Of a stretch of DNA of 64,000 nt, positions 3,922 to 43,550 are shown in pieces. Location of the stretch: positions 186,001 through 250,000 of the forward strand of contig VXMF01000048.1 of the NCBI GenBank assembly GCA_009841225.1, written 5' to 3'. The notes beneath the pieces are model-generated. The model did not search any database. It was not told the origin of the DNA and was given only the letters and a program-made list of their open reading frames with translations. Numbering within the stretch: position 1 is the first letter of the stretch; the number at the start of each line of letters is the position of its first letter. Both the position numbers and the translations under genes were made by a program. The DNA is from Terriglobia bacterium (GTDB lineage: Bacteria; Acidobacteriota; Terriglobia; Bryobacterales; UBA6623).

Positions 3922-5376
3922 GTGATGTCTGGACTTACGAGGCGAGATTTCCTGGCAGGTTCAACAGGGGCGGTTGCGGCCTCCTGCGGCAACGAATCCA
4001 CTAAGCCCAGAGCCGTTCCCAACATCCTCCTAGTCGTGCCCGACCAGCTCCGCTACGACTGGACGAGCCTGAACCCCGCGATCGGCGTGCGCACCCCTCA
4101 CCTTGAAGCGCTCGCCGCCCGGGGAGTCAATTTCGTGAACAGTTACTGCGCCTCTCCGCTGTGCGCGCCGTCGCGGGCATGCCTAGCCGGGGGCAGGGAA
4201 TACGACCGCTGCGGAGTGCCCGATAACAGCCTGAACTACCCGCTGGACCAGACCACCTACTACACGCTGCTGCGGCAAGCGGGCTATCACGTGATGGGGT
4301 GCGGCAAGTTTGACTTGCACAAGCCCGAGCCGAGCTGGGGCGTGGAGGGGCAGCATCTGCTTCCGGAATGGGGGTTCTCCGCTGGAATAGACAGTGCCGG
4401 CAAGTGGGATGCGATCCGCTGGGGAATGGATGATCCGTGCGATCCCTACACTGCCCACCTGCATGCCACCGACCGTGCCGAGACGCATCATGAAGATTTT
4501 CTCAAGCGGCGCGAGATCGGCACGTTTGCAGCGACCTTCCCGACGCCGCTGCCGGAAGAGTCCTACTGCGATAACTGGATAGCAGCCCAGGGCGTGCGCC
4601 TGCTCCGGGAAGCTCCGCGCGATCAGCCATGGCACTTGGTTGTCAACTTCGCAGGGCCGCATGAGCCGGTGGACATCACGACGAGCATGGATAACCTCTA
4701 CCGCGATGTCGATTTTCCGCAGCCGTTCAAGAATACGGAGTTCACGACCGAGAAGCATATCGAGATCCGCCGCAATTATGCCGCGATGATCGAGAACATT
4801 GACGCGTGGATGGGAAGGCTACTGGCCGAAGTCGAAGCACGCGGCGAGCTTGAGAACACTTTGGTGGTCTTCACCAGCGACCACGGTGAGATGTTGGGTG
4901 ACCACGACCTGTGGATGAAGCGCCTGCCGCACCAAGCCTCGGTGGGTGTTCCGCTGGTAGTGGCTGGGCCTGGCGTGCAGGGCGGCGTTTCCACAGCAGC
5001 CCTCGCCAGCGTGATGGACCTTGCAGCGACCTTCCTCGACTACGCCGGACTCGACACCCCGTCTGAGATGGACAGCCGTTCGTTGCGGCCGGTGCTGGAG
5101 GGTGGGTCAGGCGATCACCGTGAATTCCTCCTGAGTGGCATGGATCCCTGGCGGTGCGTCACTGATGGAAGGCTGAAATTGGTTCGCGGCTATCCAGGTG
5201 GCAAGGCGCAGGGCGGCAGCGGCATCCCGGTCTATCCGGAAGGCGACTCGGCGGCCGCGCCGCTGCTGTTCGACGTACTGGAAGACCCGTTCGAGAACAG
5301 CAACTTGGCCGACAGCGCGCCCAGCGATGTGGCGCGCTTGACCACCGAGCTGCACCGGCTCATTGGCGTTGCATGA
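3922..5376 (+). CDS. Tat-exported sulfatase (Cys-type)
   Basis: A 484-residue alkaline-phosphatase-superfamily sulfatase that hydrolyses sulfate esters, probably on a polysaccharide or small sulfated substrate. The N-terminus has a twin-arginine signal (TRRDFLAGS). The metal-binding start is VVPDQLRYD, and the core CAPSR (C81) fits the CxPxR motif that a formylglycine-generating enzyme modifies. TSDHGEMLGDH supplies later metal ligands. The start may be GTG 3922 or ATG 3925. The stop overlaps the ferredoxin start (ATGA), so both are probably translated together. The substrate cannot be read from the sequence. No maturase gene is visible in the window. Confidence 0.9.
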   Translation: MMSGLTRRDFLAGSTGAVAASCGNESTKPRAVPNILLVVPDQLRYDWTSLNPAIGVRTPHLEALAARGVNFVNSYCASPLCAPSRACLAGGREYDRCGVPDNSLNYPLDQTTYYTLLRQAGYHVMGCGKFDLHKPEPSWGVEGQHLLPEWGFSAGIDSAGKWDAIRWGMDDPCDPYTAHLHATDRAETHHEDFLKRREIGTFAATFPTPLPEESYCDNWIAAQGVRLLREAPRDQPWHLVVNFAGPHEPVDITTSMDNLYRDVDFPQPFKNTEFTTEKHIEIRRNYAAMIENIDAWMGRLLAEVEARGELENTLVVFTSDHGEMLGDHDLWMKRLPHQASVGVPLVVAGPGVQGGVSTAALASVMDLAATFLDYAGLDTPSEMDSRSLRPVLEGGSGDHREFLLSGMDPWRCVTDGRLKLVRGYPGGKAQGGSGIPVYPEGDSAAAPLLFDVLEDPFENSNLADSAPSDVARLTTELHRLIGVA

Positions 5377-5756
5377 TGGCCGAGCCGCTCCGCATTCCAA
5401 CCGGTTCGTACTCTAGGCACATCCTGTTGTGTGCGGATCAGTCCAACCCGAAGTGCGCTCCTCGGAACGTTACTGTCCGCGCTTGGCAGAGGCTCAAGGA
5501 CCGGCTCAGAGAAATCGGCTTGGCCCAGGGTGACGGCTGCGTGTATCGCTCGAAGGTGAACTGTCTGCGCGTTTGCGAGAAGGGCCCTATTGCCGTGGTC
5601 TACCCAGACGGCACTTGGTACCACTCGGCGAGTGGGGAAGTCTTGGAGCGCATTCTCGTGGAACACCTGCGTGACGGCAAGCCCGTAGAGGAGTACATCT
5701 TCGCTCGGAATCCGCTGCCGCAGTTGGCGAATCAGGCCTCGCGCCATTCTGAGTGA
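5373..5756 (+). CDS. Thioredoxin-like [2Fe-2S] ferredoxin
   Basis: A 127-residue cytoplasmic ferredoxin of the thioredoxin fold. C20, C28, C64 and C68 (CxxxxxxxC and NCLRVC) are placed as the four ligands of one [2Fe-2S] cluster, followed by the typical GPIAVVYPDGTWY segment. It overlaps the sulfatase stop by 4 nt. ATG 5376 is an alternative start. The electron partner is not evident; coupling to a secreted sulfatase is unusual and may be only positional. Confidence 0.88.
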   Translation: MMAEPLRIPTGSYSRHILLCADQSNPKCAPRNVTVRAWQRLKDRLREIGLAQGDGCVYRSKVNCLRVCEKGPIAVVYPDGTWYHSASGEVLERILVEHLRDGKPVEEYIFARNPLPQLANQASRHSE

Positions 5757-37219: not shown

Positions 37220-38569
37220 ATGCCGCGCCCAATCCATGTAGTCGGAGCAGGGCTGGCGGGCTCCGAGGCTGCCGTCCAGATCGCCCGCCATGGCGTGCCG
37301 TGCGTGCTGCACGAGATGCGCCCGGGCAAGCGGACGCCGGCTCACCAGACCGACGCCTTGGGCGAGCTGGTCTGCAGCAACTCCCTCAAGACCGAGACAC
37401 AGGGCAGCGCACCGTGGCTTCTGAAAGAGGAGTTGCGCCGCATGGGTGCGATGTCGATGCGAGTCGCGGCCGAGGTGCGGATTCCGGGCGGGACCGCCCT
37501 GACGGTCGATCGCAGCTTGTTCGCCCGGGGTGTCACCGATGCGGTGGAATCGGAGCCGCTGATCAAGATCGAGCGCGGGGAGGTTACCGACCTCGCCGCT
37601 GACAGCGACAAGATCTGGATCATTGCTACGGGGCCTCTGACGAGCGACGCCTTGGCGGAGGCGATCGCCGAGCGCACGGGCAACGACCGCCTGTACTTCT
37701 ACGACGCGATCAGCCCGATCGTCGACGCGGAAACGATCGATATGTCAGTTGCCTATCGCGGTTCGCGGTACGGGCACTCCATCGATGGCAGCGCTGACTA
37801 CGTGAACTGCCCGTTCGCCAAAGAGCAGTACGAGCAGTTCCTGGCCTCCCTGCTGGCCGCCGAGCAGCACCGTTCCAGCGATTTCGACAATCCCAACTAC
37901 TTCGAGGGCTGCTTGCCGCTTGAAGAGATTGCTCGACGGGGGCCCGACACGCTGCGTTTCGGGCCAATGAAGCCCGTTGGCTTGCGCGACCCAAGAACCG
38001 GGCGGGGCGCTTACGCCGTCGTGCAGCTCCGCCAAGAGGACGCCCGGGCCGGCTCATACAACATTGTCGGATTTCAAAACCATCTCAAGTACGGCGAGCA
38101 GAAGCGCCTGTTTCGCATGATTCCCGGCTTGGAGCGCGCCGAGTTCTTGCGCTTCGGGCAAATTCATCGCAACACATATATCAACGCGCCAGCCTTGCTG
38201 CTACCGACACTGCAGTGGAGGCAGCACGCCAACATCCTGTTCGCGGGGCAGATCTCGGGCGTAGAGGGATATGTGGAGTCCATAGCGACGGGCCTGATGG
38301 CCGGTTGGAACGCTGTTCGCTTGTCCCTCGGGCAAGCCGTGCTGGAATGGCCGCCCGCCACGGCCCACGGATCACTCTGCCGCTACATTTCCGGGGCTGA
38401 CCCGAACAACTACCAGCCGGCAAACATCACATTCGACCTGCTGCCGCCACCTTCAGCAGAGCTGAAACGGAAGTTTCGAAGACAGAAGCGGGAGCGGCGC
38501 CGGGAGCAGTGCGCGCTGGGGCTGGCCGCGCTCGACGAGTTTCTCAATGTCCAGCAAGCAGCAGCCTGA
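37220..38569 (+). CDS. trmFO: tRNA (uracil-54-C5)-methyltransferase, folate/FAD-dependent
   Basis: A 449-residue enzyme that makes 5-methyluridine at position 54 of tRNA with methylenetetrahydrofolate and FADH2. VVGAGLAGSEAAVQIARHG is the FAD-binding site, and ALGELVCSNSLKTE and the C-terminal GQISGVEGYVESIATGLMAG are family signatures. ATG 37220 gives the standard N-terminus; an upstream in-frame start at 37178 adds 14 atypical residues. Its end overlaps xerC by 23 nt, and trmFO-xerC adjacency is common in Firmicutes and other bacteria. Confidence 0.95.
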   Translation: MPRPIHVVGAGLAGSEAAVQIARHGVPCVLHEMRPGKRTPAHQTDALGELVCSNSLKTETQGSAPWLLKEELRRMGAMSMRVAAEVRIPGGTALTVDRSLFARGVTDAVESEPLIKIERGEVTDLAADSDKIWIIATGPLTSDALAEAIAERTGNDRLYFYDAISPIVDAETIDMSVAYRGSRYGHSIDGSADYVNCPFAKEQYEQFLASLLAAEQHRSSDFDNPNYFEGCLPLEEIARRGPDTLRFGPMKPVGLRDPRTGRGAYAVVQLRQEDARAGSYNIVGFQNHLKYGEQKRLFRMIPGLERAEFLRFGQIHRNTYINAPALLLPTLQWRQHANILFAGQISGVEGYVESIATGLMAGWNAVRLSLGQAVLEWPPATAHGSLCRYISGADPNNYQPANITFDLLPPPSAELKRKFRRQKRERRREQCALGLAALDEFLNVQQAAA

Positions 38570-39491
38570 CGACAGCATCTCGGCAGCGGCGACGCGGTTC
38601 TTGGCGTCATTGCGGGCGCGCAACGCATCGAAAAACACGATTGCAAGCTACGGCAGGGACCTAGGCGTGTTCGTCAGCCATTTCAGTTCGGACCCGGGGC
38701 AGGCCCCATCGGTGGGACGAGTCACGCGGCTAATGATTCGCGAGTTCATGGCCGAGGGCCGGTCGAAGGGTCTGTCACCGGCGACTCTGGCGCGCCGGTT
38801 GGCGGCCCTGAGGGGGTTCTTCGACTACTTGGTTCTCGAGGAGGGCTTTCCCAACAATCCGGCCCGCAGCCTCGCTGCTCCCAAGATCTCCCAGAAACTG
38901 CCTCCGGTCATGAGCGCTGAGGACACCAACCAAATAATCAACGCCGTGCAGTTTGACAGCGAGCGAGACCGCTTTGAGGGCAAGGTCGTCCGCGACCGCC
39001 TGATCTTTGAACTGCTCTACGGTGCGGGGCTGCGTGTCAGCGAGCTCGTCGGCTTGAACCTGAACGACATCGACAGGGCCGAGCGCTGGATCGAAGTCAG
39101 GGGCAAGGGGCGCAAGGAACGCCAAGTGCCGTACGGAGCGCGAGCTGACGAAGCGCTGGAACGCTATTTGAAGGTGCGGGAGAGTCTCGAGGCCCCGCGC
39201 ACGGAGAAGGCCTTGTTCTTGCACCGCTGGGGAGGGAAGCTCCGGCGCCTGACGACTCGCAGCGTCGGCTTGATCGTCAAGAAATACGCACGCTTGCTGA
39301 GTGGCGACCCATCCCTGCATCCGCACTCGTTGCGGCACGCCTTCGCCACGCACTTGCTCTCAGAGGGAGCGGACCTGCGCGCAATCCAGGAGCTATTGGG
39401 CCACGCCAGCCTGTCGACCACGCAGAAGTACACCCAACTGTCCATGAGCGAGTTGATGAAGGTCTACGACGCGGCGCACCCGAAGGCCTAG
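38547..39491 (+). CDS. xerC: Tyrosine recombinase XerC/XerD
   Basis: A 314-residue site-specific recombinase, probably resolving chromosome dimers at dif. The N-terminal core-binding domain (about 10-100) is followed by the catalytic domain with Arg in GAGLRVSEL, Lys in KGRKERQVP, HPHSLRHAFATHL (His-Arg), LGHASLSTTQKY (His and nucleophile Tyr). It starts inside trmFO, so the two are coupled. XerC or XerD cannot be separated by sequence alone. No neighbouring mobile element supports an integrase role. Confidence 0.93.
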   Translation: MSSKQQPDDSISAAATRFLASLRARNASKNTIASYGRDLGVFVSHFSSDPGQAPSVGRVTRLMIREFMAEGRSKGLSPATLARRLAALRGFFDYLVLEEGFPNNPARSLAAPKISQKLPPVMSAEDTNQIINAVQFDSERDRFEGKVVRDRLIFELLYGAGLRVSELVGLNLNDIDRAERWIEVRGKGRKERQVPYGARADEALERYLKVRESLEAPRTEKALFLHRWGGKLRRLTTRSVGLIVKKYARLLSGDPSLHPHSLRHAFATHLLSEGADLRAIQELLGHASLSTTQKYTQLSMSELMKVYDAAHPKA

Positions 39492-39582
39492 CCTCGGCGC
39501 CAAGTTTTCCATTCCGCGCTAAAGTGGGGTGGTCAGCAGCCGGCTGGAGCGTCCGCCGAGAGCGCAAGGATTCATCGCGACA

Positions 39583-41022
39583 ATGCCGAAACGGACGCTC
39601 TTCCTCAACCCGCCGTCCTACGAGAACTTCGATGGCGGCGCCAGTTCCCGCTGGCCCGCCACGCGCGAGATTGAATCGTACTGGTACCCGGTCTGGCTGT
39701 GCTACCCGGCTGGGATGTTGGGGGACAGCACGGTTGTCGACGCGCCTCCGCACAAGCTCAAGCCCGCCGACGTGACAGCCTTGGCGAACTCGTACGAGTT
39801 CATGGTCCTGTTCACCTCGACTCCCGGGTTCGCCAACGACTGCGTCCTGGCGGAGTCGATGAAGGCTCTAAACCCCGACCTCGAGATCTGCTTTGTCGGA
39901 CCTCACGTCGGCTCTCGCCCTGCCGAGAGCTTGCAGGCGTGTCTGGCCATAGACTTCGTGATTCGCAAGGAGTTTGACTTCCAAGTCGTTGATTTCGCGA
40001 ACGGTAAGCCCTTCCGCGAGCTCGGAGGGGTCAGCTATCGAAATCATGCAGGCGAGGTAGTGCACAACCCGGATGTGCCCTTGGTCGAGGACTTGGACGC
40101 GCTGCCCTGGGTGACACCTGTCTACAAGCGCTGCCTGGATGTGGAGCGCTATAACGTCCCCTTTCTCAAGCATCCGTACGTGTCGTTCTACACCGAGCGC
40201 GGCTGTCCCGCTCTGTGCACGTTCTGCCTGTGGCCGCAGACCATCTCGGGCCATCGCTGGCGCACGCGCTCGGCGGATGACGTGGCTGCCGAGGCGCGCT
40301 GGACGCTCGACAACTTCCCGGACGTCAACGAGATATTTTTCGATGACGACACCTTCAACATCCGCAAGGACCGCGTTCTGGAGCTGTGCGAGAAGCTCAA
40401 GCCGCTCGATTTCACTTGGTCCTGCACCTCCCGTGTCAATGTCGATTACGAGACTCTGAAGGCCATGAAAGACGCAGGTTGCCGACTGCTGATCGTTGGC
40501 TACGAGTCCGGCGATCCGCAAATCCTGAAGAACATCAAGAAGGGAGCCACCGTCGAGCGAGCTCTCAAGTTCACCCGGGATGCCCACAAGGTCGGGCTGA
40601 CGATCCACGGCGACTTCATTGTCGGCTTGCCGGGTGAGACACGGGAGACAATCCAGCGCTCCTTGGAGTTTGCCAAGCGGCTCGACACGGAAACGATCCA
40701 AGTCTCCGTGGCGCACCCCTATCCGGGCACGTCGTTTTTCGACGAGGCCATGGCCAACGGCTGGCTTACCGACGGCTCCATGACCGATGCAGCGGGCCAC
40801 CAGCTGCCAAACATTCGCTATCCAGACTTGGACCAGAAGGAGATCTTGCGGTGGGTCGAGCGCTTCTATGACGAGTACTACTTCCGTCCGAGGGCGGCGT
40901 GGCGCATTGTCAGGAAGGCGATGTTTGATACCAAGGAGCGCCGCCGGCTGGCGAAAGAAGCCCGCGAATACTTGGCTCTGCGAGCCAAGCGCAAGGAATA
41001 CGCTCTCGACACCCACCCATAG
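39583..41022 (+). CDS. hpnJ: Hopanoid-associated radical SAM protein HpnJ
   Basis: A 479-residue B12-binding radical SAM enzyme. An N-terminal Rossmann-like cobalamin domain (about 1-150) precedes CPALCTFC, the CxxxCxxC [4Fe-4S] motif at about 206-213, and the SAM barrel with EIFFDDDTFN and GDFIVGLPGET. The family acts in hopanoid side-chain biosynthesis (HpnJ is the cyclisation step of the bacteriohopanetetrol cyclitol ether path). ATG 39583 follows an AAGGA. No other hpn gene is seen here, so the rest of the pathway must lie elsewhere. Confidence 0.9.
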   Translation: MPKRTLFLNPPSYENFDGGASSRWPATREIESYWYPVWLCYPAGMLGDSTVVDAPPHKLKPADVTALANSYEFMVLFTSTPGFANDCVLAESMKALNPDLEICFVGPHVGSRPAESLQACLAIDFVIRKEFDFQVVDFANGKPFRELGGVSYRNHAGEVVHNPDVPLVEDLDALPWVTPVYKRCLDVERYNVPFLKHPYVSFYTERGCPALCTFCLWPQTISGHRWRTRSADDVAAEARWTLDNFPDVNEIFFDDDTFNIRKDRVLELCEKLKPLDFTWSCTSRVNVDYETLKAMKDAGCRLLIVGYESGDPQILKNIKKGATVERALKFTRDAHKVGLTIHGDFIVGLPGETRETIQRSLEFAKRLDTETIQVSVAHPYPGTSFFDEAMANGWLTDGSMTDAAGHQLPNIRYPDLDQKEILRWVERFYDEYYFRPRAAWRIVRKAMFDTKERRRLAKEAREYLALRAKRKEYALDTHP

Positions 41023-41151
41023 CTGGTGGCGCGACCCCGCGATTGAATTGCCAGCTCGGCTGTGCCGGGCCGCTATCCGGCCATAGATTTCCACAACAGT
41101 GTTGGAAAACTGCGATTCGAACTGTGGAAATCCTGTATGCAAAGGTTCGAA

Positions 41152-41180
41152 ATCTGTGTCTAACGCACAGATAAATCTGT
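41152..41180. repeat. Overlapping inverted repeats in an AT-rich patch
   Basis: ATCTGTG (41152-41158) and CACAGAT (41166-41172) form a 7-bp inverted repeat. ACAGAT-AA-ATCTGT (41167-41180) is a further perfect palindrome sharing the right arm. The patch TAAATCTGTACTTATAT that follows is much richer in A and T than its surroundings. Confidence 0.5.
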
Positions 41181-41451
41181 ACTTATATGCCCGCCGGGCG
41201 AAGCTGTGAAAATCTCGCACGATTGCTGGCGGGCGGTTGGCGCAGCGGACGCTCGCTGCAGGTCTCCGCGGCGAATCCGGGCCGGTGCGGGCAGCTCCCG
41301 GCATGTGCCCCCGTTCTCACGTGGATGGAATGCGTAGGCCCCGCTACTAGCCCGGTGGTTGTGCGTCAGGATTTCCACACATCCGGCGAGATTTGTGTGA
41401 AGTGGTGTGGAAATCCTGTGTGAAGCTGTTGGAAATGACGCTATAACCTCC

Positions 41452-41465
41452 GTATTTGGAAATAC
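41452..41465. repeat. Palindrome in the repeat array
   Basis: GTATTT-GG-AAATAC is perfect with 6-bp arms, and lies between the last two TGTGGAAAT copies. Confidence 0.45.
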
Positions 41466-41521
41466 TTCAGGCGCAGATCTAATTCGGTGTGGAAATCTCC
41501 GCGATCGTCGGCGGGAAAGCG

Positions 41522-43384
41522 CTATCCGGCGTCGGAGCCTCTTGACGCGAAACGGTCGATCAGGAACATCACCGCTGCCAGGGCCGCCAGCGATAGCCAC
41601 AAGCTGTCGACCAGGGTCACGGGGATCTCAATGCCGGTGAGCAGAGTCTTGGGAATCGCGATCAGTATGCCCGCGATCGCCTCTCCGGCGATCAGTCCGG
41701 AAGCGATCAGCAGGCCGTTGTGCCGCGCTCCCTCGGAGCGCTTCTGGAGGCGCTGTGAGATCAAGCCCCCGAGGAAAATAGGCACCATCAGCGAGAGCGG
41801 CAGGTAGATGCCAACTGCGACGGGCATTACATGCGCGCGAAAGCGGCTGCCGGAGCGCTGCAGGAAGCCGTCGAACAGGACGATGCCGACCGCGATCAGC
41901 GCCCCGATCCAGACCATGTTCCAGGGGATGCTGGAGTCTCCGAACAACCCCTCCGCGATCGATGCGAACAGGGTGGCTTGCGGTGCCAGCAGGGCATTGG
42001 GTTCGCCCGTGCCGATGCCGTATGCCTTGTGCAGCAGCGTCAAGACCGGGGCAATGGTGAAGACGGGCACGAGAATGCCGATCAGCTGGCCTGTCTGCTG
42101 AAGGCGCGGAGTTGCCCCTACCAACTGGCCGGTCTTGAGGTCTTGCGACGTGTCACCGGCGGTTGCGGCGGCGCAGCACACGATGCTGGCCACGCCTAGC
42201 GCGCCTAGAATTCCCGCGCTGCCAGTCATGCCTAGGATCAGCAGAATGACCGAGGAGAACATCAGGGCGCAGATTGTCGTGCCCGAAATGGGATTGTTGG
42301 ACGATCCCACCAAGCCGCAAATGTAGCTTGAAACTGCCACAAAAAAGAGCGAGCTGACGAGCATCACGATCCCTGCAGTCAACGCGACCTGCAGAGAACC
42401 GGTGACGGATTGGTACAGCACGAACGTACCGAGGGCGACCACTGCGAAGCCTGCGCCGACCAAGGAGTTAGGCAGGTCTTGATCGGTGCGTTCGATCGAT
42501 TGGCCGCTTCTTCCAACGCCGCCAAGCAGGTGGCGCACCGCCTTCGCGATTCCGCCGCGGATATTCCACATCGATGCCAGCCCGCCTACGATCATGGCCC
42601 CCACGCCCATGTAGCGAATCTGGCTGCTCCACAGCGCCCACGCCGCGTCCAGGGCGGACTGTTCGGTCAGGGGGTTTAACCAATAGAAGATCGGAATAGC
42701 GAACAGCCAGGCGATCACGCTTCCCGCCAAGGCGGCGATGCCAATCTCGACACCGACGATCACGCCGACTCCCAGTAGCGCGACCGAGACGTCCGTGCCG
42801 CCATAGAGCACGGTGCCCGCCACCCTCCACGCGGCCTCTGCCGTACTGCGAAAGACCGCGACCAAGCCTACGAGCGATTTGAACACCAATCCACCGCCAA
42901 GAGCGGACAGGATCGTGCGCATGGGGCTTCCGCCCGACTCTCCTGCCTCGAGCACTTGGGCGCAGGCCACGCCCTCCGGGTAGATCAGCTCCTTGTCCTC
43001 GACGATCAGGACCCGCCGCAAGGGGACCATGAAGAGCACGCCGAGCAGGCCGCCCAGCAAGCCGATCAGGGAGACCTTCCAAAAGGAAAACTCCAACCAA
43101 ACCCCGGTGATCAGCATGGCGGGCACGGTGAAGATGATCCCCGCTGCTACGGCCTCTCCAGCCGAGGCGATGGTCTGCACGATGTTGTTCTCTCGGATCG
43201 TGCCACGCCTCAGCAGCCCGCGCAGGATGCCCATCGAAACGATAGCCGCCGGTATGCTGCCGGTAACGGTCATCCCCGCATACAGCCCGAGATAGGTGTT
43301 TGCCGCCGTGAGTACCGTGCCGATCAGCAGTCCGATGACGATGGCCCGAATAGTGAGTTCGCGCGCTGGATGGGACGGAAGCAT
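41522..43384 (-). CDS. OPT/YSL family oligopeptide transporter
   Basis: A protein of about 620 residues with about 14-16 membrane helices. NTYLGLYAGMTVTGSIPAAI near the N-terminus is the OPT signature, and later blocks include YPEGVACAQVLEAGE and SYICGLVGSSNNPISG. OPT proteins import oligopeptides or metal-chelate complexes with protons. ATG 43384 is preferred because the preceding stretch to 43426 resembles non-coding sequence. It lies alone in opposite orientation to hpnJ, across the repeat array. Confidence 0.9.
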   Translation of the reverse strand: MLPSHPARELTIRAIVIGLLIGTVLTAANTYLGLYAGMTVTGSIPAAIVSMGILRGLLRRGTIRENNIVQTIASAGEAVAAGIIFTVPAMLITGVWLEFSFWKVSLIGLLGGLLGVLFMVPLRRVLIVEDKELIYPEGVACAQVLEAGESGGSPMRTILSALGGGLVFKSLVGLVAVFRSTAEAAWRVAGTVLYGGTDVSVALLGVGVIVGVEIGIAALAGSVIAWLFAIPIFYWLNPLTEQSALDAAWALWSSQIRYMGVGAMIVGGLASMWNIRGGIAKAVRHLLGGVGRSGQSIERTDQDLPNSLVGAGFAVVALGTFVLYQSVTGSLQVALTAGIVMLVSSLFFVAVSSYICGLVGSSNNPISGTTICALMFSSVILLILGMTGSAGILGALGVASIVCCAAATAGDTSQDLKTGQLVGATPRLQQTGQLIGILVPVFTIAPVLTLLHKAYGIGTGEPNALLAPQATLFASIAEGLFGDSSIPWNMVWIGALIAVGIVLFDGFLQRSGSRFRAHVMPVAVGIYLPLSLMVPIFLGGLISQRLQKRSEGARHNGLLIASGLIAGEAIAGILIAIPKTLLTGIEIPVTLVDSLWLSLAALAAVMFLIDRFASRGSDAG

Positions 43385-43550
43385 CTGTGATCGCAAATAG
43401 CTCGGATAAAGGGCGTACCATATCACAGCGGCCCGCCCGTGCGGTCAGGCCGTGCGTCTCGCGTCAGAAAGTGAAGGGGCCTCTAGGCTGGACTCTGCGC
43501 CCTTGGCTCGGCCCGGGTTAGGCGTGTGGCACTGCTGGCCCGTGGCTAGG

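Follow-up and report, generated by a model that had tools for sequence, protein, structure and literature searches.

The array and its flanking genes

The window, i.e., the whole 64-kb stretch of DNA that was analysed, belongs to the 5.74-Mb genome of a Terriglobia bacterium (G000; other G numbers denote comparison genomes). The locus has named relatives, at 95% protein identity, in MAGs of Bryobacterales (Acidobacteriota). A 499-bp intergenic gap (41023–41521) lies in it between two genes that, as reported in a preliminary description of the window, converge, with stops at 41022 and 41522. The left-flank gene (39529–41022, plus strand) encodes a B12-binding, HpnJ-like radical SAM protein (Pfam PF04055, with PF02310 under the cut-off) and is found across the order; the right-flank gene (41522–43426, minus strand) encodes an OPT family oligopeptide transporter (PF03169). 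Because both flanking genes end at the array described below, the region is not a promoter region, and regulation of their transcription by the array was considered and rejected. A XerC/XerD-type tyrosine recombinase gene (38547–39491, plus strand; PF00589, PF02899) is also nearby, 1.6 kb away from the array and some 26 kb from a dif-like site; the linkage may be coincidental.

The gap had been described as holding five exact copies of TGTGGAAAT, and these are present at 41087 (-), 41123 (+), 41371 (-), 41406 (+) and 41488 (+), three of them (41123, 41371 and 41406) extended to TGTGGAAATCCTG, as claimed. Dinucleotide shuffling predicts 0.13 copies across the 64-kb window; all those observed are inside the gap. 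A sixth, degenerate site, TGTGAAAAT, lies at 41205, where four aligned relatives have an intact TGTGGAAA. The six sites make up a duplicated module, with the copies offset by ~284 bp; in each, a minus-strand site is followed by plus-strand sites at +35 to +36 and at +117 to +118. In module 1, box I is site 1 (41087–41095, minus strand; TGTGGAAAT, which is ATTTCCACA on the plus strand), with site 2 (41123–41131, plus; TGTGGAAATCCTG) at +36 and site 3, the degenerate one (41205–41213, plus), at +118. In module 2, box I is site 4 (41371–41379, minus; TGTGGAAATCCTG), with site 5 (41406–41414, plus; TGTGGAAATCCTG) at +35 and site 6 (41488–41496, plus; TGTGGAAAT) at +117. Module 1 has a weaker GTTGGAAA element at +14, and another follows site 5 by about 21 bp. 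The first is a degenerate box, GTTGGAAAA (41101–41109, plus; 8 of 10 positions invariant among relatives), that lies 5 bp past box I as in E. coli DARS, and the second is a weak box-like site, TGTTGGAAA (41427–41435, plus; 9 of 10 invariant). Also present, as described, is a 23-bp tandem repeat of 1.9 copies (41394–41436). Of the AT-rich palindromes claimed earlier, ACAGATAAATCTGT exists at 41167–41180 but is without conservation in relatives.

The density of the 9-mer across the genome had been proposed as a check. The 5.74-Mb genome has 20 copies of TGTGGAAAT, and the 15 outside the array are scattered, the closest other pair being 751 bp apart. When the genome was searched for places with at least three copies of the core TGTGGAAA within 1 kb, the array was the only one in G000, and the homologous gap was the only one in the congener G004. 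Besides the dnaA-dnaN gap, the array is the only cluster of the motif in the genome.

Conservation and DnaA-box identity

Comparison with related genomes, also proposed earlier, found the same gap, its position kept, in all 11 genus members. For the five species in which the whole gap was available, 46 of the 48 positions in the six 8-bp cores are invariant, versus 193 of 437 (44%) other gap positions (Fisher p = 2.7e-13); seven of eight core positions are invariant at site 1, and all eight at sites 2, 4, 5 and 6. All five more distant congeners have DnaA boxes within the homologous gap, which is just ~130–170 bp long in G008 and G002. The boxes are TTTTCCACA/TGTGGAAAA in G004, G007, G008 and G009, with TTTTCCACA facing TGTGGAA-type boxes, and TTATCCACA in G002.

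The exact TTTTCCACA or TTATCCACA of these congeners bears out the resemblance to a DnaA box noted in the preliminary description. In the window's own clade the sites are mostly ATTTCCACA, with a conserved flanking base, and not the textbook box: the G000 boxes match the TTWTNCACA-type consensus at eight of nine positions, departing from it at position 1, and the congeners' boxes match it exactly. In the general sense of the term, i.e., boxes of the TTWTNCACA type or of the type in the host's oriC, the array is a DnaA-box cluster.

The recognition helix of DnaA reads KDHSTV in the six genomes with ATTTCCACA array boxes and KHHTTV in G004, G009 and G038, KDHSTV being limited to exactly the clade with ATTTCCACA rather than TTTTCCACA array boxes. 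The oriC boxes differ likewise, TGTGGAA in the KDHSTV clade and mostly TGTGGAT in G004 and G009. This covariation of box and helix fits DnaA reading both the array and oriC, but it is a single evolutionary event. The KDHSTV helix, shared by the dnaA genes of G000 and five sister genomes, in itself alters the part of DnaA that contacts the bases. Judging from the box sequence and its covariation with the recognition helix, we think that DnaA probably binds the array; if it does, a role in controlling initiation is likely.

Position relative to oriC and the terminus

The preliminary description read the array as a possible origin or iteron-like locus, which the analysis does not support. The array is not the replication origin: the oriC of the chromosome is in the dnaA-dnaN gap, and parS is found close to dnaA. 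In G000, dnaA is on a different contig and is followed by two dnaN-type genes, and TGTGGAA boxes, with the same core as the array boxes, are clustered in the dnaA-dnaN gap. A DnaA-box cluster elsewhere had been named in advance as counting against an origin at the array. Sites matching parS (TGTTTCACGTGAAACA, up to two mismatches) are within about 3–22 kb of dnaA in all six genomes searched, and because the canonical parS lies there, the earlier suggestion that the array is a ParB-type partition site is not supported. Neither was the predicted skew extremum found, there being no strand-skew reversal at the array on its own contig in G000. Of the features of an oriC, then, the array has the DnaA-box cluster and lacks linkage to dnaA/dnaN or parS and a skew extremum. 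The two tandem dnaN-type (sliding clamp) genes downstream of dnaA in G000 (contig C29, L024:3070-4296 and 4530-5669) encode proteins with 35% identity over 396 aligned positions.

The array is a terminus-proximal locus, 23–33 kb from a dif-like site. The scan for dif used a general consensus based on E. coli dif, and the assignment rests on sequence and position. The 28-bp dif-like sequence, ACTTCAGATAACATAGATTATGTTAACT in G009, has its core at one place in 10 of the 11 genus members, plus a second, weaker place in G008, and control matches were 0. In G009 the dif-like site is 49% of the chromosome away from dnaA. Between array and dif there are 23.7 kb in G000 and ~24 kb in each of G010 and G006; the interval is wider in G007 (27 kb) and G009 (33 kb). 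These are all five genomes with both on one contig; in G000 the dif-like site, at contig position 250740, is 740 bp past the window end. In four other genera (G014, G013, G012, G040), no DnaA-box cluster was found in ~17–60 kb on each side of dif, and therefore the dif-proximal location looks genus-specific.

Most of the genomes are drafts; G009 is assembled as one contig of 6.19 Mb, with 3.0 Mb between dnaA (4.876 Mb) and the array (1.880 Mb). Skew was taken at 4-fold sites, with genes of each strand measured separately; the T/A skew changes sign near 1.70–1.80 Mb and near 4.87–5.0 Mb, with noise and with a block of opposite sign near 5.77–6.10 Mb. An AT-skew jump at exactly 1.88 Mb proved to be local composition and vanished in the gene-controlled analysis, where the switch is at ~1.70–1.80 Mb. 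An origin near the array, taken from sampled gene orientation in G009, was overturned by the gene-controlled 4-fold-site skew together with parS and dif. With the origin assumed at dnaA, about 64% of sampled genes (crude gene calls) on the arm running from 5.0 Mb through 0 to 1.8 Mb are lagging-strand, and replication would meet the only 23S rRNA gene found (minus strand, 4.963 Mb) head-on. Both the lagging-strand gene excess and the head-on rRNA gene are unusual.

Box spacing and the E. coli DARS cores

The cores of E. coli DARS1 and DARS2 were measured from MG1655 with the same script as the congener gaps. In both, the boxes lie at 0(>), +14(<) and +26(<), which leaves 5 bp between boxes I and II and 3 bp between boxes II and III. 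The spacing is 0, +14, +25 in G008 and G002; 0, +14, +37 in G004; and 0, +14, +35, +56 in G009. The opposed pair of boxes I and II, 5 bp apart, is present in G004, G009, G008 and G002. A box III at +35 to +37, about one helical turn past the E. coli position, is found in G004, G007 and G009. In G000 itself the spacing is 0, degenerate +14, +36: box II is the degenerate GTTGGAAAA, where G004 and G009 have TGTGGAAAA / TGTGCAAAA, and there is no box at +26. Like a DARS, the element is off-origin, intergenic and conserved in position, in 11 genus members as to the gap and in five as to the 23–33 kb from dif. In DARS, boxes I and II are opposed, driving the head-to-head contact that frees ADP (PMC8682772). 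Since the window's copy is without the full DARS core, position and descent make it DARS-like rather than a proven DARS.

The inverted pair of boxes I and II with a 5-bp spacer was found in 18 of 399 genomes of the class, versus 1 for a reversed-pattern control; the same-genus members among these matches are not independent. Outside the genus, the pair is joined by a third box at exactly +26 in eight genomes from four genera (G025, G328, G061, G110, G074, G046, G054 and G080); the probability that a random 9-mer would score equally well there is P = 0.0014. None of these eight exactly DARS-spaced elements adjoins dnaA or dnaN. In two genera the triplets are just downstream of HflX-type GTPase genes (G025:C195:17417-17439 and G328:C716:77-99), and the box III position of the G328 element is occupied by TGTTGGAAA, the weak site past site 5 in the window. 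In the other six genomes (two genera, another family) the triplet TTWTCAACA-5-TGTGGAAAA-3-TGTG... is kept. Some of the class-wide pair matches are probably not DARS, i.e., four f11 matches near mraZ-like and rsmH-like genes and several others without a third box. The f11 matches, in four genomes, are a TTTTCCACN-N5-NGTGGAAAA palindrome upstream of a cell-division gene cluster (mraZ-like, rsmH-like), probably a different regulatory site.

Interpretation and alternatives

The array is real and conserved, is distinct from the origin, lies at a terminus-proximal locus, and has DnaA-box sequence in the congeners. We give roughly even chances to the view that, ~24 kb from dif, it acts in the terminus region as a DARS-like regulatory element bound by DnaA. 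DnaA would bind the ordered, opposed boxes to form a nucleoprotein complex, and that complex would alter the amount or nucleotide state of the DnaA available at oriC. In the DARS-type version, opposed ADP-DnaA molecules would meet head to head, ADP would be released, and the apo-DnaA would reload with ATP. Since the array is close to dif, it would be copied just as a round ends, and DnaA-reactivating capacity would then go up only once replication was almost complete. In the ancestral layout a 5-bp spacer parts box I from an opposed box II and a third box follows, as in the E. coli DARS core or nearly so, which makes DARS-type action the most likely kind; on this geometry, DARS-type reactivation is our best single guess. 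Reactivation rather than titration or hydrolysis, and the coupling to the cell cycle, are things that we only infer.

A DnaA-box cluster might instead merely titrate DnaA or promote ATP hydrolysis, as datA and the B. subtilis and Streptomyces clusters do, without reactivating it. This is unlikely, though well worth considering, given that dense, conserved boxes outside oriC are what such a site would have, that the window's copy is without the exact three-box DARS core and its duplicated module raises capacity, and that off-origin clusters are reported to repress initiation in B. subtilis and Streptomyces (PMC5742627, PMC5295017). It sits poorly with the opposed pair of boxes I and II in the congeners, two of which have a third box at +25, features that E. 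coli datA did not have in the same scan, and with the reduced function of E. coli and B. subtilis clusters when moved from near oriC to the terminus (PMC5010248). A wider proposal is speculative and rather doubtful: that DARS-type elements occur across Acidobacteriota and are not confined to proteobacteria, that with the element beside dif here terminus duplication would itself increase DnaA-reactivating capacity and license the next initiation, and that boxes and helix changed together in one clade.

We consider it quite improbable that another protein, e.g., a MatP-like terminus organiser or a fork-arrest factor, happens to recognise TGTGGAAA. An array 23–33 kb from dif would suit such a protein, as would the clade's mostly ATTTCCACA sites with their conserved flanking base. 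But the congeners have exact TTTTCCACA and TTATCCACA in the homologous gaps, and the TGTGGAA core is common to array and oriC boxes of the same genomes; further, there is a single cluster and not terminus-wide sites. Fork traps (Ter/Tus, RTP) are polar sites, with one orientation per arm, spread across the terminus. The earlier suggestion of a fork trap keeps a small chance, since the locus is terminus-proximal, but box orientation and homology argue against it: both orientations occur within one 410-bp cluster, the sole such cluster in the genome. An RNA-level element, such as a bidirectional terminator hairpin between the convergent genes, is very unlikely. Stems could form between sites 1 and 2 and between sites 4 and 5, which are inverted pairs, but there is no compensatory change, site 2 reading ...AAACC with site 1 GATTT... 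in G001, G003 and G006, and sites 3 and 6 are conserved without a pairing partner. These uncompensated changes and the equal conservation of partnerless sites indicate that the conserved unit is the DNA site, not an RNA stem; an Rfam search of the array gave no match. Least credible, to the point of near exclusion, is a chromosomal or secondary origin in the gap. An origin would fit the density of DnaA-like boxes, the non-coding gap and its AT-rich patches, as well as the sampled gene orientation in G009, which points near the array if genes follow replication. Against it, the genomes checked have dnaA, parS and a box cluster of the oriC type grouped at another locus, the dif-like site is 23–33 kb away, skew does not reverse at the array in G000, relatives do not share the AT-rich patch, and the gap is only ~130–170 bp in G008 and G002.

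Outside the E. coli and Bacillus models, it is unclear how slow-growing bacteria tie the completion of one replication round to the start of the next. If the DARS-like reading is true, the array would offer a naturally occurring DnaA control site in a terminus position, and exact DARS spacing in four Acidobacteriota genera, with a dif-side cluster in a fifth, would suggest that DNA-driven recharging of DnaA is older or arose multiple times. In the open-access literature we found no paper on DnaA-box clusters near dif or on DARS in Acidobacteriota.

Comparison with known systems

The array is best fitted by the off-origin DnaA-box control sites, i.e., datA, DARS and the B. subtilis clusters, none of which the preliminary description had named. 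The oriC in the dnaA-dnaN gap shares the TGTGGAA core within the same genome, but it is a separate locus, with other box spacing, linked to parS and dnaA. datA has DnaA boxes around an IHF site and promotes hydrolysis of DnaA-ATP. Like the array, E. coli datA lies between genes and away from oriC and is a cluster of about five DnaA boxes; unlike it, datA has other box spacing in the same scan and is near oriC (PMC5010248). The DnaA-box clusters (DBCs) of B. subtilis and Streptomyces coelicolor are likewise chromosomal and outside oriC. However, the B. subtilis DBCs are oriC-proximal (PMC5295017, PMC5010248), whereas the array, with its ordered module, is near dif.

E. coli DARS1 and DARS2 are, like the array, non-coding, off-origin DnaA-box clusters, and their boxes I and II are opposed and 5 bp apart, as in the congeners. 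Their third box is at +26, compared with +25 in G008 and G002 and +35 to +37 in most congeners, and in G000 box II is degenerate and the module duplicated. Published accounts place conservation of the DARS2 core specifically among the gamma-proteobacterial relatives of E. coli (PMC4245941) or among beta- and gamma-proteobacteria close to E. coli (PMC5742627), and Fis, which E. coli DARS2 requires, occurs only in the gamma-proteobacterial relatives of E. coli (PMC4245941). The E. coli sites are mid-replichore, whereas the present array is in an Acidobacteriota genus and 23–33 kb from dif. E. coli DARS2 works less well when shifted to the terminus (PMC5010248); the terminus is therefore not the known optimum, and a dif-proximal site would be a different strategy.
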